Of a stretch of DNA of 44,707 nucleotides, positions 1-44,707 are shown piece after piece. The DNA is from a virus, in the IMG/VR virus record IMGVR_UViG_3300045282_000208, positions 1 through 44,707 of that record. The stretch is one strand, 5' to 3'. The translations under genes and the position numbers were made by a program. How positions within the stretch are numbered: the first letter of the stretch is position 1; each line of letters starts with the position of its first letter. The notes beneath the pieces were generated by a model. It was not told the origin of the DNA and did no database searches. It worked only from the letters and a program-made list of their open reading frames with translations.

Positions 1-127
1 GGCGGCGGCATCCCGCCCATCATCGGCGGGGGCGGCCCCTGCGGCGGCCCCGGTGGCCCTTGGGGCGGCGGCGGCCCCGGGGGTGGGGCACCCGGCCCTC
101 CCGGCGGCGGCGGCGCGCCAGCGCCCA
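1..127. repeat. Direct terminal repeat (assembly overlap of a circular genome)
   Basis: Bases 1-127 are identical to 44581-44707. The portal reading frame continues across the join: 2117 bases here plus 112 bases on the far side give 743 codons. The likeliest reading is a circular assembly with a 127-base overlap, meaning a circularly permuted or circular 44,580-bp genome. A true 127-bp terminal repeat splitting the portal gene is unlikely. Confidence 0.95.
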
Positions 128-2117
128 CTGGAGCGCCTGCAGGGGCACCCGGCTGCGGCGGGGGCGGCGGCGGCATCATCGCCTGCTGCGCCAGCTGGAC
201 CTGCCACTGCCGCAGCGCCCGCATCAGCTGCCCCTTATTCGGCGAGTCGTAGAGCGACAGCGCCTGCTCAAACAGCGGCACGATCACGTCCGGCGACGAG
301 AAGACCTGCTGCAGCGACGGGTTCATCTGCGCGAACCCGCCCATGACCTGCATGAACCCGTTGTAGTTGCTCCGCTGCTTGCTCTTGTCCGCGCTCTCGA
401 CGCTGCCGTGCGGCTTCCCGTGGAACGTCCCGGCCAGCGCCTGCCCGTCGATCCCGCCGTCCTTCAGGTCGATCTGCCGGAACTGCAGCTGCTGCATGAA
501 CCGCTCGCTCGGCTCCAGCGGCGCTTCGTCGGCCGCGCGCCGCCACAGTTCGTGCCGGATCTTGAACAGATCCTCCATCGTCTCCTGAATGTTGCGGACC
601 TGCTCCTCGATGCGGACGAAGCTCTGCTCGGTCACCATCTGCACTTCGCCGAGCGTGCGGCTCTCCTGCGGCGCGCTGCCGAGCGTCACGTCGTTCAACC
701 CGCTCAGGCGTTCGGCGGCGTCGATGACGGCCTGCTCGCGCCCGGCCATCGACCCGGGCACGTCGGGCAGCGCCACCGGCTGCACGTCGTTCATGTCCTG
801 CACGGTGATGACCGCGCCGACGCCCCACGGCTCCTCGTCCATGTCCCAGCCGCTGTTCCGCAGGCGCTTGATCGGCGCGTTGTTGACGAGGTTGCTGCGG
901 TCGGCGATCGCGTTGCGCGTCCCCATGTGCTCTTCGCCGATCGACGCGAGCTTATCGACGTGGCTGTCGCCGTAGACGTTCAGCGGGTTCGGGGCGGGCC
1001 GGAACAGCAGGTAGCGCGGCAAGCCGAGGTCGTCCAGCTGCACGCGCAGGATCTGCCGGTGGATGCTCGACAGCGTGATGATGTACCACTCCTCGCTGCC
1101 GTCGTTGTCAAGGTCGAGCAGGACGTGCAGTTCCCAGAGTTCCTTCTCGATCGTCGTCGGCGTGCTCTGCGCGGCCACGTCGATGCCCGCGGCCTGCACG
1201 CTCTGCGGCAACTCGGTGCGTGTCCGGTCGCTCGTCGCGGCCAGCGCCTCCACCGCGTCCTTGTCGTAGAGGCCGCTGGTCGCGCGGCTCTGCAGTTCCT
1301 TCAGCCGCCGCCAGAACCGCTTCGCGTAGCACCAGACCTCGGAGTCGTCCTGCGCGTGCGCCGGGAGGATCAGGAAGTCGCGCAGCGACACGTTGCGGTA
1401 GCTCGGGCCGCGCCGCACCGGCACGAACTCATCGACCGGCGTCGTGATCGCCCCGGTCGTCTCCGGGTCGTCGGCCTCCATGTATGCGCCCTGATCATCG
1501 AGCGCCGGGGCCACGACGCCCCGGTCGTCGGCGACCACCATGTCCGGGTCGCCCGGCTGCTCGCCGGGATGTAGTTCGGGTTGCAGCTGGCGCACTTTGC
1601 GCTGCTTGATCATGTCGGCGCGCTCACTGCACTCCAGCACGCCCGTGCCCTCGATGAGCGCCAGCTGCAGCGTGCGCTGCAGCCACCCCTGCAGCCGCTC
1701 CTCTTCCTGCTTCCACTGGTGGAACTCTTCGACCAGCGACGCGCGCGGGGCCGCGCTGCCCCACCCGTCCACGACCCACACCGGCTCCACGAAGATCGTC
1801 TTGCAGAACCGCGCCCGCATCGCGTCGATCTTCTCGGCGATGATCCACGTCGAGAGGTCGGCCGCGCCGGGGAAGGGCAGGTCTTTGACGTTGCGCTTCC
1901 CCTGCTTGTAGAGCCAGTGCCAGTAGTCGAGGTCGCCGCCCGGCTGGATGATCGGCCCGCGCGCCGCCAGCGCCCGGTCGATCTCCTCCGACAGCATCGC
2001 GACCAGATCGCTCTTCTGCGTCGCGGTCAGCGTGACATCGAAGGGCGACGCGCCGAGCTTCGGGGGCTTCAGCTTGCGCCGGGTCGGCCGCGGGTAGACC
2101 GTGGACGGGGGCGGCAC
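1..2117 (-). CDS. Portal protein (N-terminal part; continues across the circle join)
   Basis: Forms the DNA-entry ring at one capsid vertex and is the docking site for terminase and the neck. The frame opens at a GTG at 2117, two codons after the stop of the 28-residue gene, and stays open to base 1. It finishes at a TAG at 44469-44471 on the other side of the join, giving about 742 residues. Portal-like stretches include 'KDLPFPGAADLSTWIIAEKI' near residue 80 and 'FVPVRRGPSYRNVSLRDFLI' further on, typical of large podovirus portals. The last ~70 residues are Pro/Gly/Met/Gln-rich. The start is uncertain because the ribosome site is weak. Position after the terminase supports the call. Confidence 0.85.
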   Translation of the reverse strand, partial: MPPPSTVYPRPTRRKLKPPKLGASPFDVTLTATQKSDLVAMLSEEIDRALAARGPIIQPGGDLDYWHWLYKQGKRNVKDLPFPGAADLSTWIIAEKIDAMRARFCKTIFVEPVWVVDGWGSAAPRASLVEEFHQWKQEEERLQGWLQRTLQLALIEGTGVLECSERADMIKQRKVRQLQPELHPGEQPGDPDMVVADDRGVVAPALDDQGAYMEADDPETTGAITTPVDEFVPVRRGPSYRNVSLRDFLILPAHAQDDSEVWCYAKRFWRRLKELQSRATSGLYDKDAVEALAATSDRTRTELPQSVQAAGIDVAAQSTPTTIEKELWELHVLLDLDNDGSEEWYIITLSSIHRQILRVQLDDLGLPRYLLFRPAPNPLNVYGDSHVDKLASIGEEHMGTRNAIADRSNLVNNAPIKRLRNSGWDMDEEPWGVGAVITVQDMNDVQPVALPDVPGSMAGREQAVIDAAERLSGLNDVTLGSAPQESRTLGEVQMVTEQSFVRIEEQVRNIQETMEDLFKIRHELWRRAADEAPLEPSERFMQQLQFRQIDLKDGGIDGQALAGTFHGKPHGSVESADKSKQRSNYNGFMQVMGGFAQMNPSLQQVFSSPDVIVPLFEQALSLYDSPNKGQLMRALRQWQVQLAQQAMMPPPPPPQPGAPAGAPVGAGAPPPPGGPGAPPPGPPPPQGPPGPPQGPPPPMMGGMPP

Positions 2118-2120
2118 CGG

Positions 2121-2207
2121 TTACTTCTTCGGCGGCTTCGGGGGCTTGGGACGCCGCGTGGGCTTGCGCGGCTCACTGAGCGCGGGGAAGGTGCCGGTGG
2201 TTTGCAT
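2121..2207 (-). CDS. 28-residue basic proline/lysine peptide
   Basis: A short frame starts at ATG 2207 behind a GAGG ribosome site six bases upstream and ends at TAA 2121-2123, just before the portal start. The product begins MQTTGTFPALSEPRK and ends in a run of PKPPK-type motifs. It overlaps the zinc-knuckle gene upstream by 35 bp. It may be a real microprotein or a leader that couples portal translation. No function is recognised. Confidence 0.45.
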   Translation of the reverse strand: MQTTGTFPALSEPRKPTRRPKPPKPPKK

Positions 2208-2361
2208 GACGGTCCTCGCAGCGCCAGCAGGCGCGTATCAGCGTCCAGAGCAGGCCGGGCACGGGGTGCACCGGGTAACACCGGCCGCAGACCCGACATT
2301 GCACCCATGTCTCGTTGTCGTCAATGGGCGCGGTGATCTTGTCTACCGGTGGCGGTGCCAT
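2173..2361 (-). CDS. Zinc-knuckle microprotein (62 aa)
   Basis: Starts at ATG 2361, overlapping the end of the upstream PEP-CTERM gene by 19 bp. The product has two cysteine pairs, CRVC near residue 21 and CWRC near residue 45, separated by a hydrophobic stretch (PVPGLLWTLIRA). This layout would bind one zinc ion. It is the second small Cys-pair protein in the cassette and lies directly downstream of a secreted PEP-CTERM protein. The function is unknown. Confidence 0.6.
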   Translation of the reverse strand: MAPPPVDKITAPIDDNETWVQCRVCGRCYPVHPVPGLLWTLIRACWRCEDRHANHRHLPRAQ

Positions 2362-3077
2362 CGGAGCGCCCCAACCAGCCCCGACCCGAGCAGCAGCAGC
2401 GAGGTTGGCTCCGGCACCGGAGACGGCGGCGGCGGGGGCGGCGGAGGCGGCGGCGGCGGGGGCGGCGGATTCGCGCCGAACCCCGAGGCAAAGCCCGTCG
2501 CCAGCGCCCCGGCCGACTGCAGACAGCCCGCGCTCCCGGTGTCCACACACGCGAAGCCGTGGATGGCGGCCTCGTTCCCCAGCGCGTTGTTCGTCAGCAC
2601 GGCCGCGGCGCTCGCCCACGTCCCGCTGGTGTTCGTCAGCGTGAACCCGATCTCCGACCACGAATGGCTGTAGCCATCAAAGCTCGACACGATCAGGTTG
2701 AACACCCCGAACCCGTCCATGGTGCCGCCGCCCGTGTCGAAGCTCAGGTCGCCGGAATTGGTCGAGAACCCGGTGCCGTCGATGCCCCCCGTGAACCCGG
2801 CCTCGGTGAACGACGCGGCGTTGACGTTCACGCCCGCCCCATTGTTCCCGCCCATCAGGAACTCGATCCCGCCCGTGGTCAGGCTGTCGAACGTGATCGA
2901 GGCCGTGGTCGGACTCGTCCGGTTGACGGTCACATCGGCGTAGGGGCCGGAGAACAGCCCCAGCCCGCCACCGTTGCCGGTGGTCAGCGCAAAGGTCAGC
3001 GTGTCCGCGCGGGACGGGGTCGGCGTCGCAAGGCCGATCACGACGAGGGCGAGAAGGCACGCAAGCAGTCGTCGCAT
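2343..3077 (-). CDS. PEP-CTERM sorting-domain protein with 15-proline linker (244 aa)
   Basis: A predicted exported, exosortase-processed protein. Residues 1-25 form a Sec signal (MRR, then a leucine/valine-rich helix, cleavage near SRA). The middle is a Ser/Thr/Gly-rich, beta-type secreted domain with one possible disulfide (CVDTGSAGC). Then come 15 consecutive prolines, the motif VPEP, a hydrophobic helix (TSLLLLGSGLVGAL) and a basic tail RWHRHR. This is the classic PEP-CTERM C-terminus recognised by host exosortase/EpsH. The ATG at 3077 is preferred because the signal peptide begins there. Known PEP-CTERM proteins are bacterial exopolysaccharide-associated surface proteins. Finding one between phage packaging genes suggests a host-surface-modifying accessory gene. 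Confidence 0.88.
   Translation of the reverse strand: MRRLLACLLALVVIGLATPTPSRADTLTFALTTGNGGGLGLFSGPYADVTVNRTSPTTASITFDSLTTGGIEFLMGGNNGAGVNVNAASFTEAGFTGGIDGTGFSTNSGDLSFDTGGGTMDGFGVFNLIVSSFDGYSHSWSEIGFTLTNTSGTWASAAAVLTNNALGNEAAIHGFACVDTGSAGCLQSAGALATGFASGFGANPPPPPPPPPPPPPPPSPVPEPTSLLLLGSGLVGALRWHRHR
2424..2468 (-). repeat. 45-bp proline-codon tract (CCG/CCC/CCT x15)
   Basis: Fifteen consecutive proline codons just before the PEP-CTERM motif. It forms a spacer between the secreted domain and the sorting helix. Translation would need EF-P, and the tract could change length by slippage. Confidence 0.9.
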
Positions 3078-3084
3078 AGGGCAC

Positions 3085-3261
3085 CTACTGGGGAGACGAG
3101 GATGGATGAACCGACCCGACCGCACTACCCTGCTGCGCCGCGGCCGAGACACGACGGGCGGTGACCGTCGCCAGCACCAGCGGCACCAGCGCAACCACCG
3201 CCCGGCGCGTCGGGCACTTACACACCGGCAGATACTGCCCGCACGTCGGACAGCGCAACAT
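3085..3261 (-). CDS. Small zinc-knuckle/membrane protein (58 aa)
   Basis: An ATG at 3261 lies three bases past the TAG of the upstream PEP-CTERM gene, and the frame ends at TAG 3085-3087, seven bases before the next PEP-CTERM start. The N-terminus has CPTC then CKC (residues 4-16), a four-cysteine knuckle. A hydrophobic segment (VVALVPLVLATVTA, about residues 22-35) follows, with a Ser/Pro-rich tail. It could be a membrane-anchored zinc protein. Its position exactly between two PEP-CTERM genes suggests a shared role, but no family is recognised. Confidence 0.6.
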   Translation of the reverse strand: MLRCPTCGQYLPVCKCPTRRAVVALVPLVLATVTARRVSAAAQQGSAVGSVHPSSSPQ

Positions 3262-3263
3262 CA

Positions 3264-3941
3264 CTACGCCGCGCGCCGCACCCTGCGCCGCACCGCGCCT
3301 GCCACGCCGACCAGCCCGCTGCCGAGCAGCATCAGGCTCGCCGGTTCCGGCACCGCCGCCGGGAACGCCGCATCCGCCGTCCCCGTGAACGAGGCCGTGA
3401 ACGACCCGATGGTCGTGTGCGGAACACCACCAACCAGATAGGTGTCCGTGTGGAACGGCGGCGTTACGTTACTCAGCGACAGTGAGAAGCTCTCCGGGTT
3501 GGTCAGCGCCGCCAGATCGCTTGTGAGAACGAGCGGTCCAAGCAGCCCGTTGTTGCTCGTCAGGACCGAGTTGGTCCCGCCGATGGTCCCCAGCTGCAGC
3601 GAGCCACCGAACGTCCCATCGAGATAGTCGAAGGTATCCGCGGCGTTGTGCAGCGAGAACGTCCCCGCGAACGGCTGCGCGATCAGTGGGCCAAACGCCT
3701 GCGCATCGCCCGTGCTCGTCGCGTTGAGCGTCAGCACCGCGTTGGCGTCGAGCGCCCCCATGAAGATCTGGGTGATGTTGACGCCCGTGTTGATGCTGAT
3801 GGCGGTCGTCCCGTTGCCGAGGTCGGTCGCCACGAACTGGTTCGTGGTGGTGTTCCCGAACGAGGTGATCGTAGACGCTCGCGCCACCACGGGGAGCAGC
3901 AGCAGAGCCAGAACCACCAACGCGAGCGCAGCACGACGCAT
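3264..3941 (-). CDS. PEP-CTERM sorting-domain protein (225 aa)
   Basis: A second exported, exosortase-dependent protein. The start at ATG 3941 follows an excellent ribosome site (AGGAGG, six bases upstream). Residues 1-22 are a signal peptide (MRRAALALVVLALLLLPVVA, then RAS). The mature part is Thr/Asn/Leu-rich with repeated beta-type segments. The C-terminus has VPEPASLMLLGSGLVGVAG (from about residue 197) followed by RRRVRRAA, a textbook PEP motif, helix and basic tail. It resembles host PEP-CTERM surface proteins. It shares its sorting tail with the downstream copy, but I see no clear similarity in the mature domains. Confidence 0.9.
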   Translation of the reverse strand: MRRAALALVVLALLLLPVVARASTITSFGNTTTNQFVATDLGNGTTAISINTGVNITQIFMGALDANAVLTLNATSTGDAQAFGPLIAQPFAGTFSLHNAADTFDYLDGTFGGSLQLGTIGGTNSVLTSNNGLLGPLVLTSDLAALTNPESFSLSLSNVTPPFHTDTYLVGGVPHTTIGSFTASFTGTADAAFPAAVPEPASLMLLGSGLVGVAGAVRRRVRRAA

Positions 3942-3951
3942 AAGCGACCTC

Positions 3952-4140
3952 CTATTGGTCATCGAGACGTTCCACTTCGACGTACACCCACGCGCCGTCG
4001 GCGTAGATGAGGACATCGTCGCCCGCCTCGTTCCGAAAGACGAGCGACCCGTTGTGGACGAGCACCTCAGCGGCCGTGACATCGCGTTCGTTGATGCCGA
4101 CGACGACGCCTGCGGTGAGGACGACGTGGAACTTCCTCAC
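3952..4140 (-). CDS. Small hypothetical protein (62 aa)
   Basis: A GTG at 4140 overlaps the stop of the proline-repeat gene as GTGA. The product alternates hydrophobic and polar residues (VVLTAGVVVGINERDV, VLIYADGAWVYVEVE), suggesting a compact beta-fold of the SH3-barrel type. No signal, cysteine or membrane segment is present. It ends ten bases before the strong ribosome site of the first PEP-CTERM gene. The family is not recognised. Confidence 0.7.
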   Translation of the reverse strand: MRKFHVVLTAGVVVGINERDVTAAEVLVHNGSLVFRNEAGDDVLIYADGAWVYVEVERLDDQ

Positions 4141-4601
4141 AGAGGGTTCACTTCCGGGGCTTCCCCCGTCGGCGGCTCCGGCGTCGGCAGCGTGTGGTCG
4201 GGACGCCCGGGGTTCGGGTTCGGCAGCCACGACCAGCCCCACCCGTAGCCCGGGATGAAGCCCCACACCCACCCGCCGTCCGACGGGTCGAAGCTGGGCA
4301 GCTGCACCGGGTAGCCCGGCGTGGAGCCGCTCGACGGCGGCTGGCCCGGCGGGATCACGATCGGGTGCGCCGGGTGGCCCGGGGACGGCCAGATGCCCAC
4401 GGGCGGGCCACCGGGGGCAATCGGATGCGCCGGGTGCCCGGGCGACGGCCAGATGCCGACCGGAGGCCCGCCGGGCGCGATCGGGTGCGCCGGGTAGGGC
4501 GGCAGCCCCTGATCGGGATACGGCGGCTGGCCCGGCAGCGAATTGTCGGGACGGTTCCCGCTGTCATCGAGGAACGTGATCAGCGCGAGACGTGAGGTCA
4601 T
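4137..4601 (-). CDS. Proline-rich repeat protein (154 aa)
   Basis: Starts at ATG 4601, with GACTGGAG sixteen bases upstream matching this genome's start-site motif. The middle holds two near-identical 20-residue repeats of the type APGGPPVGIWPSPGHPAHPI and a partial third. Before them is a 'PDNSLPGQPPYPDQGLPP' segment, and after them a glycine/tryptophan segment (WVWGFIPGYGWGWSWLP) and 'PDHTLPTPEPPTGE'. Such Pro/Gly/Trp repeat proteins with 'DNSLP' turns occur in phages of soil bacteria. The role is unknown; a structural or surface role is a guess. Confidence 0.8.
   Translation of the reverse strand: MTSRLALITFLDDSGNRPDNSLPGQPPYPDQGLPPYPAHPIAPGGPPVGIWPSPGHPAHPIAPGGPPVGIWPSPGHPAHPIVIPPGQPPSSGSTPGYPVQLPSFDPSDGGWVWGFIPGYGWGWSWLPNPNPGRPDHTLPTPEPPTGEAPEVNPL
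4360..4498 (-). repeat. 60-bp tandem repeat inside the proline-rich gene
   Basis: Two 60-bp units (4360-4419 and 4420-4479) and a partial third encode a 20-residue repeat. Copy number could vary by recombination. Confidence 0.85.
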
Positions 4602-4627: not shown

Positions 4628-4783
4628 TTAGCGTTTGCTGCGCGGCGGCGGTGGCGCGCCGCCACTCCGTCGGGCCGTGTTGAGCGCGATGGCGACCGCC
4701 TGCTTCTGCGGTTTCCCCGCGGCCATCTCGGTTTTGATGTTGGCGCTGACGGTTTTCGGTGAGGCTCCAGCCTTCAGGGGCAT
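4628..4783 (-). CDS. Small conserved phage protein (51 aa, MPLKxGxS type)
   Basis: Starts at ATG 4783 and ends at TAA 4628-4630. The product begins MPLKAGASPKTVSANI and contains 'TEMAAGKPQKQAVAIALNTA', then a Pro/Arg/Lys tail. This is the signature of a widespread short phage protein (MPL...G.S...NI..EM.AGKP.KQAVAIAL), usually near structural genes and of unknown function. The AVAIAL segment should be helical. It lies just downstream of the large terminase. Confidence 0.8.
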   Translation of the reverse strand: MPLKAGASPKTVSANIKTEMAAGKPQKQAVAIALNTARRSGGAPPPPRSKR

Positions 4784-4807
4784 AACGGGTCGTGAGGATA
4801 GCACGAC

Positions 4808-6337
4808 TCAGCGTCGCCGCCGCGTCACCCCGCCCCACCGGCTCCCGCTGCGCGCCCCCACCCGCAGGTCGGCCTCGTCGTAGTCGATCGTCGCCCGCTG
4901 CCGCATCCGCGCCTGCTCCTTGTCGTGATCCACTTTCGTCGGCTGCGCCGGGCCATACGCCAGCACGATGTACTCGATCGCGTTCATCGCGTGGTCGTAG
5001 TAGCCGTCCTTGCGCGCGCGCCGCGTGTTCGGGTTCCCCGTGTGCTGCAGCGCCCGCTCGTCCCACACATACCCCGCCTCCAGCGCGTCGATGAAGTGCG
5101 TGCTCCCGATCACGCCCTCCGGCGCGACCGTCAGCCACCGCGTCGGGTCCACGGTGAACGCTGGCCCCTGCTTGGTCAGCCGCTGCATGTAGCCCGCGAG
5201 GTGCTGGATGCACCGGTCGCGCGCGTCCGGGTGGTTCGCCCCCGCGATCGTCCCCAGCGCCACGCCATACTCGCGCAGCACGTCGGCGGCGCTCACGCGC
5301 GTGCCCTGCGAATTGTTCTGGTCCCCCGCCGGGTCGCCCGTGCTCCACACCTCGCACGGCAGCACCCGCAGCCCGTCCGCATCCGGCGCGCCCCCGAACC
5401 AGAGGTGCCGCTGCGCCACCGCCATCGGCGCGAAGTCCTCGATGAACTGGTCCGTCCCGAGGATCCCCCCCAGCACGCGCAGTTCGCCCCACGGCAAGAC
5501 CTGCGCCCACACGACCGCCGGGTGCGAGTGCCCGAAGTCCCAGCCCTCCAGCAGCGGCACGTCCGGGTTCAGGCGCAGCGGCTGCACATGGATCCGCGCC
5601 TGAAACACGCCCGCGTAGACCGGCTTGCCCACGATCGGCAGCCCGCGCTTCCCCTCGATGAAGCGCCGCCGCAGCGCGTGCCCCTCGGGATACGCCTGCT
5701 CCAGCGTGTCGATGTAGCGGTCGCCCAGATTGTGCCGGTTGTCGTAGACGCTGGTCCGCAGGTAGAGGTAGCCGGGCTTGCCGTTGCGCTCGGGAAAGTC
5801 CTGCGCGATCCAGTGCGTCAGCCCCGGCGGGTTCGGCGTCAGCAGCACCTGATGCGGATACCCCGGCTGCGACAGCCGCGACGGGATGTAGTGCCGATAC
5901 ACGTCCTCCGGCACCTCCTCGGGCTGGTCAATCCCGAGCACCGCCAGCGTCAGCCCGGCCAGCTTGCCGTAGCGGCTCGTCTCTTCCGCCGCCTTCAGCG
6001 CCCGCAGGTAGACGCGCGAGCCTTTCCCGACGACCTCGTCATACTCCTCGTCGGCGTGCCACTGCAGCCGGATGCCGTGCAACGCGCACCAGTCGCGCCA
6101 CCGCGGCTTCAACTGCGCGTCGAGCGCGTCCTGCGTCCACCGGCAGAGCGCGCACTGGATCCCGGGGTAGTCCATGCAGTAGGCCGCGATCTTCGCGACC
6201 AGCGGCGTCGTCTTGCCCGCCCGCACGGCCCCTTCCAGATCGACGTAGGGCCACGTCTCGGCCGACGCCAGCAGGAACGCGCTTTGAACGGGGTTCCAGT
6301 AGTCGCGCACCTCCGCGCGCCTCACGGCACCAGCCAT
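4808..6337 (-). CDS. terL: Terminase large subunit
   Basis: The DNA-packaging motor: an N-terminal ATPase drives DNA into the prohead and a C-terminal RNase H-like nuclease cuts the concatemer. In the 509-residue product the Walker A is GAVRAGKT (36-43) and a Walker B-like strand is LAVLGIDQPEEV (131-142). The nuclease core begins at GWDFGH (Asp267), and a late acidic motif YYDHAMNAIEY lies near residue 455. The ATG at 6337 is preferred: AGGGG lies six bases upstream and the frame overlaps the stop of the tiny membrane gene. A GTG at 6325 is an alternative. The downstream accessory cassette separates it from the portal, which is normally adjacent. Confidence 0.93.
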   Translation of the reverse strand: MAGAVRRAEVRDYWNPVQSAFLLASAETWPYVDLEGAVRAGKTTPLVAKIAAYCMDYPGIQCALCRWTQDALDAQLKPRWRDWCALHGIRLQWHADEEYDEVVGKGSRVYLRALKAAEETSRYGKLAGLTLAVLGIDQPEEVPEDVYRHYIPSRLSQPGYPHQVLLTPNPPGLTHWIAQDFPERNGKPGYLYLRTSVYDNRHNLGDRYIDTLEQAYPEGHALRRRFIEGKRGLPIVGKPVYAGVFQARIHVQPLRLNPDVPLLEGWDFGHSHPAVVWAQVLPWGELRVLGGILGTDQFIEDFAPMAVAQRHLWFGGAPDADGLRVLPCEVWSTGDPAGDQNNSQGTRVSAADVLREYGVALGTIAGANHPDARDRCIQHLAGYMQRLTKQGPAFTVDPTRWLTVAPEGVIGSTHFIDALEAGYVWDERALQHTGNPNTRRARKDGYYDHAMNAIEYIVLAYGPAQPTKVDHDKEQARMRQRATIDYDEADLRVGARSGSRWGGVTRRRR

Positions 6338-6444
6338 TGCAGCCCCTGCTTCACCAGCCACGCCAGCCCGACACTCGCGCCGATGATGACGCCCGACGCC
6401 GTCAGCACACGCCGCCACGACGCGCGCCGCCGCCTCACGGCCAT
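6322..6444 (-). CDS. Tiny single-pass membrane protein (40 aa)
   Basis: ATG 6444 to TGA 6322-6324. The N-terminus is strongly basic (MAVRRRRASWRRV), followed by one hydrophobic helix (LTASGVIIGASVGLAWLV) and a short tail. The charge pattern predicts the basic end in the cytoplasm. It overlaps the next tiny gene by 10 bp and the terminase start by 16 bp, so it is embedded in a coupled operon. It could be a holin, pinholin or spanin-like component, but no family is recognised. Confidence 0.6.
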   Translation of the reverse strand: MAVRRRRASWRRVLTASGVIIGASVGLAWLVKQGLQWLVP

Positions 6445-22555: not shown

Positions 22556-23019
22556 TCGCCGCCACCGTCTGTCGCGGCTGCGGGCGGGTGCAGCCCGGCT
22601 GGGAACTGTCGCATGACGCCGACGGCGTGTCGTGGCACCCGGACTGCTGGGAACGCGCGCAGGGGCAGCGGTGGTCCCCGCCGCCGGTCCCGCTGACGGA
22701 CCTCGCACAGTTGATCGCCGCGAAGCCCGCGCCGGGCGACTATCACCAGTGGCGCGGCTGGTACTCGTCGGTGTTGGCGCTGATCCTGCGCCTCTCGCTC
22801 GATGAGCACCGCGCCGACGATGCGCGGCTGACCGAGCGCCAGCGCGCGGTGCGCTACGGCGTCTGGCGTCGCCGGGTGAAGCCGCGCCCGCGGCAGCTGG
22901 AGGCCGCGGGGATGCCGGACTATCTCGTCAGCTACTGGCGGCGCTACTGGCAGCGTCGGGCCGCGCGCCGCCGCGCCGCCGCTCGGCGGGCGTCTGGTCG
23001 TTCTGCTGCCACCGCGTGA
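22552..23019 (+). CDS. Last rightward gene; Cys-rich N-terminus, basic C-terminus (155 aa)
   Basis: ATG 22552 overlaps the previous stop. The N-terminus has CRGCG and HPDC (residues 8-32), a possible zinc site. The C-terminal ~70 residues are very basic and aromatic ('GVWRRRVKPRPRQLEA', 'SYWRRYWQRRAARRRAAAR'). The last 92 bp overlap, tail to tail, the end of the 1509-residue virion gene on the other strand. The extreme basic end may partly reflect that overlap. Confidence 0.65.
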   Translation: MIAATVCRGCGRVQPGWELSHDADGVSWHPDCWERAQGQRWSPPPVPLTDLAQLIAAKPAPGDYHQWRGWYSSVLALILRLSLDEHRADDARLTERQRAVRYGVWRRRVKPRPRQLEAAGMPDYLVSYWRRYWQRRAARRRAAARRASGRSAATA

Positions 23020-26000
23020 ACGCCTGATAGAGCACGGGGCTGGTGGCGAGCATCGCGCTCAGGAGGTTCGCCTCGCCCCGGCCCAGTCGCGCCATCAACT
23101 CTTCGACCGAGATGCCGAGGTGCGCGGCTTTCTCCGGCACGTACTTCGCGAAGTAGTCCGCGAAGCCGTAGTGCTCGCCCGCTGACCGCTTGCCATACTT
23201 CGTCCCGAACAGCGACCCCGTCTTCGACAGCATCTGCCGGATCCCGGTCCACGCGCGGGCCGCGTAGTTGTTCTTGTCGATGCCGCGCGCCGCCGCGAGG
23301 TCGGCCAGCCGCCCGTGGATCACGTCTTTCGCCGGGTCGGGCACCACGCCGAACGTCGGCCCCGTGTAGACGCCGCGCTGCGGGTCTTCCGCGATCTTCG
23401 CCCAGTGCGTGTCGAGCGCCGCCGAGTCGGGGTGCCCCAGCATCGCGCGCATCATCGGGCCGACCTTCGTGCCGCTGATCTCTTCCCCGCGCGACACGCG
23501 CTGCAGGTTCGGCGCGTAGCCGCGCTCCATGGGCACGGCCTTCCCCCGGAACTTCTTGGAGACAGCCGTCTGCGCGTAGGGGCTGCTGCCGAAGTCCGGC
23601 TGCAGGACCGGCTCGCCCGCGAGGTCGCGCCGCATGTATTCCGAGGCCGCGCGCAGGTTATCGCTCAGGTTGGTCGTCGGCGACGAGGCGGCGAGGTAGC
23701 CCGCGAACTTCTTGATCGCGTCCGGGTTCGTGCCGTCGGGGTTGTACGCCTTCTCGATGTCGGTGCCGTAGAGCCGATACCAGTCGCCCGTGCCGTGCTT
23801 CTCGATGTACTGCTGCCCGATCTCTTCCATCAGCGCCGTCCGCATGTCGAACAGCGTCATCGACGGCGAGGGCGGCGTCTCGGCGATCCGCGACTTGTCG
23901 GCGACCGACGCGGGGATCTCGTCGCGGAACGACTTCCACATCGCCGCCGTGGTCGGCTCCGGCATCGGCTTGTCCATGAACTCGCGCCACTGCCCCACGG
24001 GCGCTTCGCCGACCGCCTCGCCCTTCACCGGGTCGAGCGTGTAGATCGCTTTCTGCGGCGCAGGGTCACGCAACGGGTCGCCGAGCGGCGCGTAGCGGTC
24101 GAACCCCTCGCCCGCCTCGCCGCGCACCGTCGCCTGCCGCACTTGCTTGGCGATCGCCGCCGACTGCGCGGCCCGGCCCGGCACGTTCCCCGCCTTCTCC
24201 GCGACCGTGTCGGCCTTGTAGCGCCGCGACGAGTCGAGCACGACCGAGGGCACGCCGTCGATGTCGGTGCGCCACCCGCCGAAGTAGCGCCCCTTTTTCG
24301 AGAGCACGTCGCGGTTGGCCTGCACGAAGTCCACGACGTGCTGCTGCGTGAAGTCCGCGAGCGGCACGGTCACGACGCGGTCGGACGGCGCGTTCGAATA
24401 CACGCTGACCATCGAGCCAGTGCTTGGCTCCCGCCCGTTCTTCAGGTCGATCGTGATCCCGAAGCTCTCCGGGTCCACCAGCCGGTTGTAGATGGCCTTC
24501 GCCGTCGAGGCTTTCGACACGCCGAACCGCACCTCGCGCGGCTTGATCGACCCCGCCTCCTCCAGCCCCTTCATGCCGCGCCCGGCCGCCATCCCGAGGC
24601 CCGCCACGCCCGCGCCCATGCCCGCCGCTTCGAACACGGCGTGCCGCGTCTCGTCGTCAGGGATCAGGCTCTTCGCGAGGTCGGTGTCGGCGAGCGCCTG
24701 CGACGACAGCCCGATGGCCGGGCCGATGAGCGCCTGCTTGCCCGCGCCCGCCAGCCCCCGGCCCAGCCGGGAACCGAACGACCCGAGCGCCTCCGCGCCC
24801 GCGCCGACCGCCGCGCCTGCTTCCTCCCCCGCCCGCGCCAGCCCCCCGCCACGCAGTCCGAGTGCCCCGAGGCCCGTCTGCACGCCCCCGCTGATGATCT
24901 TGCCGGGACGGCCCTCCTGCACGCCCTCAAGGCCCGTCTGGAGGCCCGCGGCCGCCATCGCCGCCGCCAGACCCTTCCCGACCATCTCGACCGGGCGCGC
25001 AAGCCGGGTCGCCGCCGCCAGCGGCCGGAGCGCCTCCTCGCCGAGGAACGCGGCGTTGAGGGGCGAGGTCTGGTCCGCGATCAGGTTCGCCAGCTTCTGG
25101 AGGTGCGGGTGGGTCGCGCCGAGGTCGGGCGCGCCCAGCATCGGCGTCTGCAGCCACTCCGGCACCGCCCCGAGGCCCGCGGTCGCGACCGGCGTCTTCG
25201 CGAGCGCGTCGTAGGCGCGGCTCTCGGTCTGCGGGTCGAGCGGCTGGCCCTCGTCCAGCGTCGAGTCGATCTGGTCCTGCTGCTGCAGCAGGCGCTGGTT
25301 GAAGCGCAGGTCGTCATCGACGCTGCCGTCGTGCCCGTAGACCGTGTCGGGCGCAGGCGCGTCGAGCACGCCCGGCGTCGGGCCGCGTCCTTGCGTGATG
25401 TTGAAGTGCTCGGCCTTGGCCTCGGTGTTGGTCAAGTCCTGATGCCCGAGCGCGGCCAGCCCGCCGTGGTCGAGCAGCGACAGTTCCAAGATCGCGCGGC
25501 GCATCACGGTCGCCATGCCCGGCACGGTGCCCTTCCGCAGCGCGTCTGCCATCGCGAGCTTCGTCTTCGCCGACATCAGGTTGTAGAGCGGCGAGCGCAT
25601 CACGCGCACCGTCACGGCCGCCGCCGGGGCCGCGAGCGCGCCTGCGCCCACCGTGCCGAGCAGGCTCGCGCCGCCCGCGTGCGCGGCATACCCGGCCCCG
25701 CCCGTGAACCCGGCCAGCGTCGCCATCGACCCGAACAGCCCGCCGCCGACGTGCCCCACGCGCCGCTCGGTGGTCGAGGCCGCCGCGTCGCTGAGGCGCT
25801 TCCAGAACGACAACTCGTTGCTCTGGTCGGCGACCTGCTGGCCCATCAGCGCGTCGCGCGTCGTCTCGACCTCGCCGCGCGCCGACCGCATCGCGCCCTT
25901 CATCGACTCGTCGGCCATGGACGAGAGGAACCCGGTGCCCTTCGCCCCGGCGACGATCTGGCCCCAGTCGGCCGCGAGGCCGCGCAACTGCTGCGCGTTC

Positions 26001-27457
26001 ATCTCCGGCCCGTAGGCGCGCACGGTGTCGGCGAGCTTCGCGATGTTGTTCGTGAACGCCGGGTCGCTCGACACGAACTCGCCCGCCGCGTTGAGGTCGC
26101 CGAACTTCATCCGCAGCGCGTCGATGCGCCGCGCGAGCGGCCCCGTCGCCATGCGCGTGCCGACGAGGTCGGTGTTGATCACGTCCCCGATCTCACCCAT
26201 GGCCTGCGCGATGCCCTGCTCGGCGGTGCTCTGCGCGCCGCCGCCGATAGCGCGCTGGATCATCTGGCCCGGGAACCCGCGCGGGCTGGCGAGGCCGGTC
26301 TGCTGGATCTCCGACCCGAGGCCCGACACCACGTCCTGCAGGCGGCTGGCTGCGTCCTGCAGCGCCGAGATGTTCGTGTCCGACGGGTTCAGCCCGCCGC
26401 GCCCGGTGGCGAGCGACGCGCGGATCTCCTGCAGCGCCTGCGTAGATTCGGGCGCGAGGTTGATGACGGCCTTGCCGTGCGCGGTAAGCAGCCCGTCGGC
26501 GGTCGCGCGGATCCGGTCGCGGATGCTCTTCAGTTTCGGCGCGATGTCCGGCTGCAGGCGCGCGGCGTAAGCGGCGTCAAGGCTGGTGCCGATCGCGTCG
26601 GCCTGCGACTGCGCGTAGTCCACGATGCCCTGCAGCCCGCCGCCCTCGCGCCACGGCGCGGCCGCGGACAGCGGCACCTCGCGGATGATCTCCTGCGCGT
26701 TGCGCCCGACGAACTTCTTCCACGCCTCCTTGCCCGGCGCGATGACCCGCCCGAGGCTCTTCTCCGCGGCGCTCTCCAGAAACGGCGCAAGCCGCTTCAG
26801 GACCGGCGCGGTCGCATCAATCGCTGCGCCCCCGATGCCCCCGTAGACCGCCCCGGTTTCAGCGTCGTTGTCGAGCAGCTGTCCGTAGAGCGCGCCCTTC
26901 CCGACGTTCTGCAACGCCCAGTTGGTGGCCCCGGTCGCGCCCGCCTCCGGCAGCGCCGCATCCGCCGCCAACATGGCCCCGATGTCGCCGACGGCCCCGC
27001 CGAACTTCTCCCCGGCGTTCTTCAGGCCGAGCGGCCCCGTCGGACTACTCAGCGCCTCAAACTGCCCCACGGCCGACGCGGGATCCTCCCCGCTGAGATA
27101 CTGCTCCGCGTTGGGGTCCGGCGAGAACCGCGCCGCGAACCGGGCGGCGTTGAGCGGCGCTGTGATCACGTCCGTGGTGAGCCGCTTCCCCTCGCCGATG
27201 AGCGCCGTGAACGGATTGATCTGGCGGATGTAGTCGTTGTAGAACCGCGTCAGCGGCGTGTCCCCGTAGTCCTCCGGCGTCGGCGGCGGCATCAGCCGCT
27301 GCTGCAACGTGTCCAGCCACGTCGCGGTCGGGTCGCCCGCCTCCGGGGGGACATCGACCGTGCCCGGGAACGCGGCGAGGCCGCCGCTCGCGCGCACGTT
27401 CGCCGGGGTGATCGAGAGCGCCGAGGGGCCGACGACGGAGATGTCGCCCTTCGCCAT
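22928..27457 (-). CDS. Giant internal/ejected virion protein, polyvalent-protein-like (1509 aa)
   Basis: The largest gene. The N-terminal ~500 residues are helical. Alanine/glycine-rich amphipathic or membrane-active stretches follow at roughly 550-600 and 850-950. Residues ~1010-1080 contain 'YFGGWRTDIDGVPSVVLDSS', a phrase of polyvalent phage proteins. The final ~330 residues include 'FAGYLAASSPTTNLSDNLRA', 'SGTKVGPMMRAMLGHPDSAALDTHW' and 'NYAARAWTGIRQML', resembling DUF7178-like domains. Proteins of this size at the end of a podovirus structural block usually enter the host with the DNA. The domain calls are by eye. Confidence 0.75.
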   Translation of the reverse strand: MAKGDISVVGPSALSITPANVRASGGLAAFPGTVDVPPEAGDPTATWLDTLQQRLMPPPTPEDYGDTPLTRFYNDYIRQINPFTALIGEGKRLTTDVITAPLNAARFAARFSPDPNAEQYLSGEDPASAVGQFEALSSPTGPLGLKNAGEKFGGAVGDIGAMLAADAALPEAGATGATNWALQNVGKGALYGQLLDNDAETGAVYGGIGGAAIDATAPVLKRLAPFLESAAEKSLGRVIAPGKEAWKKFVGRNAQEIIREVPLSAAAPWREGGGLQGIVDYAQSQADAIGTSLDAAYAARLQPDIAPKLKSIRDRIRATADGLLTAHGKAVINLAPESTQALQEIRASLATGRGGLNPSDTNISALQDAASRLQDVVSGLGSEIQQTGLASPRGFPGQMIQRAIGGGAQSTAEQGIAQAMGEIGDVINTDLVGTRMATGPLARRIDALRMKFGDLNAAGEFVSSDPAFTNNIAKLADTVRAYGPEMNAQQLRGLAADWGQIVAGAKGTGFLSSMADESMKGAMRSARGEVETTRDALMGQQVADQSNELSFWKRLSDAAASTTERRVGHVGGGLFGSMATLAGFTGGAGYAAHAGGASLLGTVGAGALAAPAAAVTVRVMRSPLYNLMSAKTKLAMADALRKGTVPGMATVMRRAILELSLLDHGGLAALGHQDLTNTEAKAEHFNITQGRGPTPGVLDAPAPDTVYGHDGSVDDDLRFNQRLLQQQDQIDSTLDEGQPLDPQTESRAYDALAKTPVATAGLGAVPEWLQTPMLGAPDLGATHPHLQKLANLIADQTSPLNAAFLGEEALRPLAAATRLARPVEMVGKGLAAAMAAAGLQTGLEGVQEGRPGKIISGGVQTGLGALGLRGGGLARAGEEAGAAVGAGAEALGSFGSRLGRGLAGAGKQALIGPAIGLSSQALADTDLAKSLIPDDETRHAVFEAAGMGAGVAGLGMAAGRGMKGLEEAGSIKPREVRFGVSKASTAKAIYNRLVDPESFGITIDLKNGREPSTGSMVSVYSNAPSDRVVTVPLADFTQQHVVDFVQANRDVLSKKGRYFGGWRTDIDGVPSVVLDSSRRYKADTVAEKAGNVPGRAAQSAAIAKQVRQATVRGEAGEGFDRYAPLGDPLRDPAPQKAIYTLDPVKGEAVGEAPVGQWREFMDKPMPEPTTAAMWKSFRDEIPASVADKSRIAETPPSPSMTLFDMRTALMEEIGQQYIEKHGTGDWYRLYGTDIEKAYNPDGTNPDAIKKFAGYLAASSPTTNLSDNLRAASEYMRRDLAGEPVLQPDFGSSPYAQTAVSKKFRGKAVPMERGYAPNLQRVSRGEEISGTKVGPMMRAMLGHPDSAALDTHWAKIAEDPQRGVYTGPTFGVVPDPAKDVIHGRLADLAAARGIDKNNYAARAWTGIRQMLSKTGSLFGTKYGKRSAGEHYGFADYFAKYVPEKAAHLGISVEELMARLGRGEANLLSAMLATSPVLYQAFTRWQQNDQTPAERRRGGARPDAASSAASS

Positions 27458-29521
27458 CTACTGCTCCTGCCGCACGATCTGGCCCGCCGCGTTCTTCCCG
27501 AGGATCTTGTAGCGTTTGCCGTCGCCCGGGTCGGTGTAGACCAGCCCCGCGCCCTCGGTGTCCACCACGCCCTGCGCGGCCCCCGCCGCCTTCTGCGTGG
27601 GCGTCGCGGCCTGCGCTTCGGCGGCCCCGGGGATCAGGCGACGCCCGCCGCTCCCGCGGATCTGCGCGGGCGTCTGCGTCACGCCGGGCGCGACCCCGCC
27701 GCCGCCCCGGAACTTGGTGGCCTGCTCCTGCGCGGCCTGCTCGTCCGCGATCTGCTTCTCCGCGTCGCGGACCCAGTAGCCCCGGATCGGGTTGGTCTTC
27801 GACCCGCCCTCGGGCATGATGAACATCCCCTCGGGGATCCCGCGCGCCTTCAACATCTGGCCGTAGCCGTCCACCAGCATCTCGGCCCCGGCCTTCCCTG
27901 ACTCGTAGGACCGCCGGAGCACATCCGCCATCTGCTCGCGCTGCTCGGGCAGCAGCGCCTGCCCGTTCCAGACGCGGTTCGCCATCGCGCGCGGGTTCGA
28001 CACGCCCGCCCGCGCCAACTCGATCCGCAGGCTCTCTTCATCGCCCACGCGCGACGACCCGGGATGCTTCGCGCGGATGAACTCCGCGATCAGCGTCTGG
28101 TCCGAGACGCCGTTCGGGTGCGGGTCGTTCATCGTGCCGAGGAACTGGTCGTAGAGCGCCCCCATCTGCTGCGCCTGCTGGTAGACCTTGTTCTGCGCCA
28201 ACTTGGTCGCGATGGCGCGCCCGGCCAGTTCCTGCTGCGGCGTGAGCACCGCCGTGCCGTGCTGCTTCGCGCTCGCCCGCAGGTTCGCGGCCTGCGCGTC
28301 GAGCAGCGCGTTGGCCTTGCGCGCGTGCTCCAGCGCGAGCTTCTTCATCTCCTCCGACTGCGACTCGTCGGTCGCGACCTTGTTCCACTCGTCCTTCGTC
28401 AACTGCAGGACCACGTCGGGCGTCGGCTCCTGCCCCGTGCGCGCCTTGATCATCGCGATGTGGTCCTGCACCTCGCTGTTGACCTTCTGCTCGATGGCCG
28501 AGGTCGTCGCGCCCGCCGACGCCGACGGCGGCAGCGCGTTCGTCAGTTCGCGCCACGACCGCAGCGACCGCGTCTCGCCGTCGATGCGGATCGCCATGCT
28601 GTCATCGAGCTTCGACTCATCGAACAGCCGCCCGGCGTCCTTCGCCCGCTGCCGCATCACGTCGATGACCTTTTCCAGCTTGCCCGCGAGGTACTCCTGC
28701 CGCCGCGTGTCCGCGCCGACCTGCGCGCCCTGCCACGCATCCATCACGTCGATGCCCTGCTTGGCGTAGAGCGGCGCTTGCGCCTTCAGCCACGCGAGGC
28801 CGTCGGCGGGGTTTGCAAACGACTTCGCCTTCTCGGCGAGCGCGGCGATGATGCTGGTGTTGTGCTCCAGCCGCTGCTGCTGGTCCTGCCACAACTGGTG
28901 GTCGCGCGCGTAGGCGTCCTGCGCCTGCTTGTATTTGAAGAGGCCGCGCTCCTTCAGGTCGGCGTTGTAGCCCTCGTTCCCGGCGTTCGCGCCCTGCAGC
29001 AGCGCCGCTGCGCCGACCTTCCCGCCGCCCGCCAGCCCAGTGATGAGCGCCGCGATGCCGGGCACGACGCCCTGCAGGATGGCGCGCTTCGGCGACGGGT
29101 AGAGTGTGTCCTCATCGAGCAGTCGCGGCGGCGTCGGGGGCGGCGTGTAGCCGCCGCCGAACATCGGCGACCCACTGGTGCCCGCCCCGCCCGTGCTGCC
29201 GCCTGCGTCCCCGCTGAACGGATCCGCGTTGAACGGGTCGCTGGTCGCCGGGCTGCGCGCAGGCGCGCCGCCGCCGAGCGCCGCCGCCAGCGCGTCGAGT
29301 GACCCGGACGCACCCGGCCCGGCCAACGCCTGCAGCCCCGTGTCGTCGCCGACGGTCGCGTTCGGGATCGGCACGATACTGGTGTCGTCGCCGGGGCGCA
29401 CGACGAGGTCGTCGTACGGGCCACCCGTGCCGCCAAACGGGTTCTGCAGCGCCTGCTGCTGGAGCAGGGACTGCAGCGGGTTCGCCGCGCCGCCGAGCAT
29501 CTGCGAGAGGTAGGAGGCCAT
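27458..29521 (-). CDS. Internal virion protein (687 aa)
   Basis: ATG 29521 (or GTG 29524) to the base before the giant gene. The N-terminal ~150 residues are Gly/Pro/Asp-rich and disordered. Then comes a glycine-rich hydrophobic helix ('VVPGIAALITGLAGGGKVGAAALL'), followed by a long helical domain with Gln/Lys/Glu coiled coils through about residue 480, and a C-terminal Gly-rich tail. It lies between the other internal proteins. A role in DNA ejection is inferred from position and architecture. Confidence 0.75.
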   Translation of the reverse strand: MASYLSQMLGGAANPLQSLLQQQALQNPFGGTGGPYDDLVVRPGDDTSIVPIPNATVGDDTGLQALAGPGASGSLDALAAALGGGAPARSPATSDPFNADPFSGDAGGSTGGAGTSGSPMFGGGYTPPPTPPRLLDEDTLYPSPKRAILQGVVPGIAALITGLAGGGKVGAAALLQGANAGNEGYNADLKERGLFKYKQAQDAYARDHQLWQDQQQRLEHNTSIIAALAEKAKSFANPADGLAWLKAQAPLYAKQGIDVMDAWQGAQVGADTRRQEYLAGKLEKVIDVMRQRAKDAGRLFDESKLDDSMAIRIDGETRSLRSWRELTNALPPSASAGATTSAIEQKVNSEVQDHIAMIKARTGQEPTPDVVLQLTKDEWNKVATDESQSEEMKKLALEHARKANALLDAQAANLRASAKQHGTAVLTPQQELAGRAIATKLAQNKVYQQAQQMGALYDQFLGTMNDPHPNGVSDQTLIAEFIRAKHPGSSRVGDEESLRIELARAGVSNPRAMANRVWNGQALLPEQREQMADVLRRSYESGKAGAEMLVDGYGQMLKARGIPEGMFIMPEGGSKTNPIRGYWVRDAEKQIADEQAAQEQATKFRGGGGVAPGVTQTPAQIRGSGGRRLIPGAAEAQAATPTQKAAGAAQGVVDTEGAGLVYTDPGDGKRYKILGKNAAGQIVRQEQ

Positions 29522-29527
29522 CACCGA

Positions 29528-44468: not shown

Positions 44469-44707
44469 CTACTGCACCCCACCCGGTGCGGACATCGCCA
44501 GCGACATCTGCGCGAGCAGGTCCGGCGGCACTTGCGGCATCGACCCCATCCCCGGCACCACGTCCGGCGGCGGCTCCTGCGGCGGCGGCATCCCGCCCAT
44601 CATCGGCGGGGGCGGCCCCTGCGGCGGCCCCGGTGGCCCTTGGGGCGGCGGCGGCCCCGGGGGTGGGGCACCCGGCCCTCCCGGCGGCGGCGGCGCGCCA
44701 GCGCCCA
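44469..44707 (-). CDS. Portal protein C-terminus (continues from base 2117 across the join)
   Basis: The frame enters from the duplicated segment and ends at TAG 44469-44471 with 'PDLLAQMSLAMSAPGGVQ'. Bases 44581-44707 repeat positions 1-127. The tail is Pro/Met/Gln-rich and probably disordered. Confidence 0.85.
   Translation of the reverse strand, partial: GAGAPPPPGGPGAPPPGPPPPQGPPGPPQGPPPPMMGGMPPPQEPPPDVVPGMGSMPQVPPDLLAQMSLAMSAPGGVQ
44581..44707. repeat. Second copy of the 127-bp terminal repeat
   Basis: Exact copy of bases 1-127. It lies inside the proline/glycine-rich C-terminal part of the portal gene and should be counted once in the 44,580-bp circle. Confidence 0.95.

Follow-up and report, generated by a model that had tools for sequence, protein, structure and literature searches.

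The DNA analysed here, called the window in the following, comprises the 44,707 bases of the viral record IMGVR_UViG_3300045282_000208. Its bases 1–127 are repeated exactly at its end (44581..44707; a 127-bp direct repeat, to which no strand is assigned), and the portal ORF runs on over the circular joint, reaching its stop codon at 742 aa. The terminal repeat, together with the read-through of the portal frame, indicates that the phage genome, of ∼44.58 kb, is complete in the window. The recognisable genes are all located on the minus strand and encode the large subunit of the terminase (terL), a RusA-like resolvase, a helicase/primase, exonucleases, an Erf-like annealing protein, a head scaffold, and an internal virion protein. 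Two very large ORFs (22928–27457 and 27458–29524; 1509 and 688 aa, respectively), which had neither a Pfam match nor an informative PHROG match, probably encode virion or tail proteins. Profiles for tyrosine and serine integrases matched nothing in nine long records (the window and eight related ones), which suggests that the phage is probably lytic; integrase-based lysogenic conversion was dropped as the leading model.

The terL gene (4808..6418, minus strand; phrog_2, 1.7e-17; TIGR01547, 1.7e-10) is followed by a gene for a small phrog_2423 protein (4628–4804) and by that for Pro (4137..4601, minus strand), a proline-rich protein of 154 aa built of PDNSLPG / HPIAPGGPPVGIWPSPG units. Just upstream of P0001, a conserved micro-protein of 59–63 aa is encoded (3952..4140, minus strand; 67–73% identity to sister phages). 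Then come, again all on the minus strand, P0001 (PEP1; 225 aa; 3264..3941), the partner micro-protein ZnA (3085..3264; 58 aa from the ATG at 3261, a GTG at 3264 being a possible alternative; supported by an alignment of 13 homologues), P0002 (PEP2; 244 aa; 2343..3077), ZnB (2173..2361; 62 aa with two CxxC pairs, followed by tblastn over more than 30 related loci), and the portal protein (3..2117; 83–92% identity in sister phages, and a distant match annotated ‘portal protein’). Both zinc micro-ORFs, like the ORF with the proline repeats, thus sit where the first-pass annotation had put them; the small, conserved gene at 3952–4140, between Pro and P0001, was absent from it.

PEP-CTERM signatures of P0001 and P0002 and the partner micro-protein

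P0001, the gene of which is preceded by a GGAGG ribosome site, is composed of a signal peptide (residues 1–22), an all-beta mature domain (residues ∼23–191), and a VPEP sorting tail (residues 197–225). The N-terminal signal-like sequences of P0001 (MRRAALALVVLALLLLPVVARA|S) and P0002 (MRRLLACLLALVVIGLATPTPSRA|D) both have a charged start, a hydrophobic core, and an A-x-A-like end, as predicted from sequence and hydropathy (peak over 17 residues of 3.0 and 2.4, respectively). At the C-terminal ends (VPEPASLMLLGSGLVGVAGAVRRRVRRAA for P0001 and VPEPTSLLLLGSGLVGALRWHRHR for P0002; both frames are open), the PEP-CTERM profiles PF07589 (27.9 and 27.2 bits, respectively; cut-off 20.7) and TIGR02595 (21.6 and 19.7 bits; cut-off 16) scored above the Pfam and NCBIfam thresholds. 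The proposal that these two genes encode PEP-CTERM proteins is therefore borne out by the very family of models by which it was to be judged. A six-frame PEP-CTERM search of the record hit exactly two places, P0001 and P0002 (E ∼1e-8), and the same search had no match in 14 control genomes. Signal, VPEP motif, hydrophobic helix, and basic end were kept in all 14 of the aligned PEP1 homologues. In P0002, a linker of 15 prolines precedes SPVPEP; a run of 16 prolines was observed before the sorting motif in L059 (L059:6442–7158), and its presence in both proteins points to conservation of a stalk-like linker.

Signal peptide, VPEP motif, hydrophobic helix, and basic C-terminus are the features that P0001 and P0002 share with the PEP-CTERM/exosortase–EpsH system. 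Unlike the usual PEP-CTERM proteins (PF07589, TIGR02595), however, they are phage-encoded without a phage exosortase, and their mature domains do not reach the cut-off of any curated family.

In most contigs, the frame following PEP1 encodes a micro-protein of 51–79 aa, which often overlaps the PEP1 stop codon; in the window, the first base(s) of ZnA overlap the stop of P0001. The 13 homologues, which stem from several phage backbones, share the core R(R)..L..P.VL.TV..R.V.A and, after it, S...(C)..(C).PS, an arrangement that resembles a signal peptide, or a signal anchor, to which a short tail for export is attached. ZnA carries an N-terminal zinc ribbon (CPTC..CKC) ahead of this hydrophobic signal/anchor segment (RR..P.VL.TV..R.V.A), and the ribbon (CPxCG..CxC) is an N-terminal extension seen only in the window lineage. 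Of the ‘two zinc-knuckle microproteins’ reported initially, the two zinc micro-ORFs are indeed present; as a pair defining the cassette, they were rejected, because ZnA and ZnB are different things: the former is a membrane or exported micro-protein with a lineage-only ribbon, the latter belongs to the ordinary gene set. The partner is absent from L007 and L048, which nevertheless carry PEP1, and is thus not essential.

Loss, retention, and exchange of PEP1

For comparison with sister phages, 33 related loci obtained from a terL scan were compared with the genes of the window. PEP1 was present in the terL–portal slot of ∼14 contigs and absent from that of ∼12. In the sister phages, the slot was always occupied by small genes, even where a PEP-CTERM gene was lacking; the terminase–portal pair is thus not ‘usually contiguous’ in this group, and the cassette does not break it up, as had been assumed. 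The gene at 3952–4140 was found irrespective of whether a PEP-CTERM gene accompanied it and, like ZnB, persisted in most of the loci devoid of PEP1 (L014–L018, L024, L025, L027, L030, and L034 among them). As both ZnB and the proline-rich gene remain in sister phages without a PEP-CTERM gene, they are not specific to the cassette, of which the first-pass annotation had made them a part, and are, as judged by their distribution, ordinary neighbours in the terL–portal slot. Pro recurs in this neighbourhood, and does so in unrelated PEP1-carrying phages as well. A proline-rich protein beginning with M.SRLALITFLDG and containing PDNTLP/PDQGLP repeats was observed beside PEP-CTERM genes in unrelated phages; besides the window (4137–4601), loci of this type are L003:5302–5901 and, beside PEP-CTERM genes, L159 and L084.

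Close relatives differ in whether PEP1 itself occupies this fixed site, which agrees with its having been called accessory. The DNA of L014 is 98% identical to that of L005 up to the PEP1 start codon; L014 retains the PEP1 leader with the ribosome-site region and resumes inside ZnB. In L016, the break lies just before the PEP1 start and the last part (3′ end) of the partner gene is retained, and in L007 PEP1 was kept and the partner lost. Judged from these scars, PEP1 was removed from sister phages by at least two different deletions. Their differing extent indicates that the ancestor of the lineage already had the cassette and that more than one loss occurred, which suggests repeated loss rather than fresh insertion and makes PEP1, on this evidence, a dispensable but maintained gene and not a recent intrusion. 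The search of related phage contigs for the same cassette thus returned PEP1 in the same slot of many independently assembled contigs, and L039 contains the P0002–ZnB–portal junction.

When 169 codons of the mature domain were compared, the proteins of the window and of L045 (the contig of L003) were 96% identical at the amino acid level, with a dN of 0.02 and a dS of 0.82, and 68 of the 75 differences fell on third positions, which indicates strong purifying selection on this domain. Across the PEP-CTERM genes compared, dN/dS was ∼0.02–0.3. Outside the mature domain, identity between the same two proteins was only 48% (signal) and 47% (tail). Compared with the sister L006, by contrast, mature domain and tail were equally similar (73% each), and at the DNA level the tail of the window was 81% (77–89%) identical to that of L006 and 37–64% to that of L045. 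P0001 is thus a mosaic gene: its mature domain is 96% identical to the one encoded by a phage whose terminase differs, and its tail matches that of the sisters. The simplest reading is that the mature domain was exchanged between phages and the sorting end stayed in the lineage. The mature domain would then be an exchangeable payload, useful to many phages; signal and sorting tail would stay with each lineage because they are fitted to the export and exosortase enzymes of the local host.

A scan with the PEP1 alignment retrieved the P0001 family from 20 viral contigs of 43–71% GC, which represent several unrelated backbones. L003/L004 and L054/L055 have another terL (phrog_979; E 2.6e-46 for L003), upstream of which PEP1 is located; L048, at 43% GC, carries PEP1 together with its own terL; and in L056 and L059, PEP1 lies among other neighbours. 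A position upstream of terL was instead observed for PEP1 in L040, which is the start of the L037 record. L059 repeats the order PEP1–partner–PEP2–ZnB, and its PEP2 is 70% identical to P0002 over the full length (dN 0.26, dS 1.05). In place of P0002, L003 encodes a third, unrelated PEP-CTERM protein (PEP3; L003:6810–7595), which only two contigs carry; scans with PEP2 and PEP3 as single proteins found few relatives. The GC content of PEP1 tracks that of its contig (0.48 where the contig has 0.43, and 0.66 where the genome has 0.71), which argues that the gene is an old resident there. Horizontal exchange between unrelated phages was thus observed for PEP1, and the notion of phage-borne, mobile genes gains from both its presence on unrelated backbones and the exchange of its mature domain.

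Possible role at the surface of the infected cell

The AlphaFold2 model of P0001 consists of a beta-rich domain between two helices, with a confident core (mean pLDDT 78); Foldseek comparison of the model with the PDB and with viral models yielded no match below an E of 0.001. The sole curated family that aligned along the mature region was NF033554 (PepA of floc-forming bacteria; 38.7 bits, residues 40–220). This is the best curated full-length likeness of P0001, yet it stays below the equivalog cut-off of 80 bits, as does that of the best viral relative tested (46.6 bits); other viral members of the superfamily scored 24–47 bits. PepA is chromosomal and RpoN-regulated in bacteria, whereas P0001 is encoded in a phage head-gene region. 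When PepA was overexpressed in Aquincola, soluble exopolysaccharide decreased, bound exopolysaccharide increased, and flocs were restored (PMC9850573). By analogy with PepA, P0001 is most likely a matrix-binding surface protein.

The exosortase profile PF09721 had no match in 45 related viral records. A phage-borne exosortase was therefore rejected and sorting, if it happens, must use the host enzyme, just as the first-pass annotation had it. Profile searches of genome contigs with the terL and PEP1 alignments returned no relative, and phage and plasmid collections contained only distant matches to terL or portal and none to PEP1, also when a member of the broader family was used.

On balance, we lean toward the reading that the cassette lets the phage place a protein of its own on the surface of the infected cell via the host sorting machine, and thereby changes the surface or the exopolysaccharide. 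P0001 (and, in the window, also P0002) would be made with a Sec-type signal peptide and cross the inner membrane, in which the C-terminal helix would hold it; host exosortase would cut at the VPEP motif and hand the protein on. The sorted protein would finally be located on the outer surface of the cell or within the matrix of exopolysaccharide, and its beta-rich domain may alter this matrix. The most likely way is binding of exopolysaccharide, which PepA, to which it is distantly similar, also appears to perform. Adsorption of competing phages to the infected cell or to its neighbours might then decrease, or these cells might hold the matrix in another way, to the presumable benefit of the phage. 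The translationally coupled partner probably assists or regulates PEP1 at the inner membrane. Host sorting of P0001 and P0002 appears more certain than the effect on surface or exopolysaccharide. Since the P0001 family recurs in many unrelated phages, which swap, keep, or lose the gene, P0001 is probably a working tool for altering the surface or slime of infected cells.

The same surface destination would also suit superinfection exclusion proper, in which the receptor used by the same phage and its close kin would be masked or blocked by the sorted protein; reinfection of infected cells and the loss of progeny on debris would thereby be avoided. The accessory, swappable distribution of PEP1 is typical of such genes, and the gene, lying in the head-gene region, would be expressed during infection. 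However, the 96% identical mature domain serves two phages that share no detected tail genes, which makes a receptor-specific block the less favoured reading, if weakly so, as L003 and L004 are incomplete fragments; the shared domain favours a general surface or matrix target somewhat more than a phage-specific receptor. We consider exclusion of this kind rather unlikely. An abundant phage substrate might alternatively act as a decoy that occupies the host exosortase and thereby depletes the PEP-CTERM or exopolysaccharide proteins that the host itself makes, with which the conservation of the sorting signals in every member and the lack of a phage exosortase are consistent. For this, however, the signals alone would suffice, yet the strongest conservation, and the exchange, concern the mature domain, and a decoy is very unlikely. 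That the PEP-CTERM genes are mere passengers, picked up from a host by chance and without a role for the phage, is highly improbable: some bacteria do encode many PEP-CTERM proteins (>60 in one strain; PMC9850573), and many sister phages can dispense with the gene, but the low dN/dS, the recurrence on many backbones with the GC content adapted to each, and the conserved partner largely refute this view. A chimeric assembly or contamination with host DNA, which the first-pass annotation had named as fatal to its proposal and which does occur in metagenomic contigs in general, is excluded for practical purposes by the terminal repeat with portal read-through, by the same gene in the same slot of many separate contigs, and by L039 as a second record with the P0002–ZnB–portal junction.

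Phages are known to alter host surfaces. Their ‘moron’ genes, which encode superinfection-exclusion lipoproteins and membrane proteins, are likewise non-essential, exchangeable among structural genes, and aimed at the envelope. Moron products are, however, anchored as lipoproteins or simply in the membrane, whereas P0001 and P0002 are predicted to take the exosortase route; moreover, the P0001 cassette appears to be ancestral, with repeated losses in its lineage, and no integrase was found.

PEP-CTERM proteins in the wider viral collection

A motif scan of the viral collection detected at least 118 viral stretches with a PEP-CTERM motif, some of them on contigs already found. When a profile of the PEP1 mature domain, signal and tail excluded, was applied (E 1e-5 or better), 53 of 118 belonged, among the matches listed, to the PEP1 superfamily by this domain alone. 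A proper tail was present in 68 open frames (79 motif loci among the matches listed, plus L061–L064). A phrog_2 terminase was encoded by 23 of 48 records picked from the motif set and the PEP1 contigs, which indicates that many of the motif records are real phages; the remaining ones are short, or may hold host DNA.

These proteins may well form a large, hitherto undescribed superfamily of phage PEP-CTERM surface proteins, in which a conserved matrix-active domain is traded, host-fitted export and sorting ends are kept, a dedicated, coupled micro-protein is provided, and the exosortase pathway is taken over to control the extracellular matrix of the host; we put this forward tentatively, at slightly less than even chances. 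In the open-access papers searched, no phage cassette on the exosortase route was found described; the one passing mention of a viral exosortase-type domain is a single sentence that lists TIGR03118-family proteins with an exosortase-interaction domain among the transferred genes of hot-spring viruses (PMC11003980). Like P0001 and P0002, these are viral genes with an exosortase-type tail, but TIGR03118 is another family, not among the NCBIfam matches of P0001 and P0002, and neither a cassette nor a function is given there.

Flocs and biofilms are shaped by exosortases and PEP-CTERM proteins. Should phages make use of this route, the matrix of communities of the soil and rhizosphere type would be a direct target of viral infection, the sequences of sorting tails would hint at the hosts of phages, and the conserved domain that phages trade would mark the part of the PEP-CTERM world that is relevant to phage–host encounters.

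Two further observations were made in these records. Outside the window lineage, tandem pairs (two PEP-CTERM matches within ∼1 kb) occurred in the L080, L110, L114, and L160 records. The terL-like frame of L147 (9915–11474 of its record, minus strand) contains four internal TGA codons, possibly owing to stop recoding or to decay of the gene; single ones were seen in L076 and L108.
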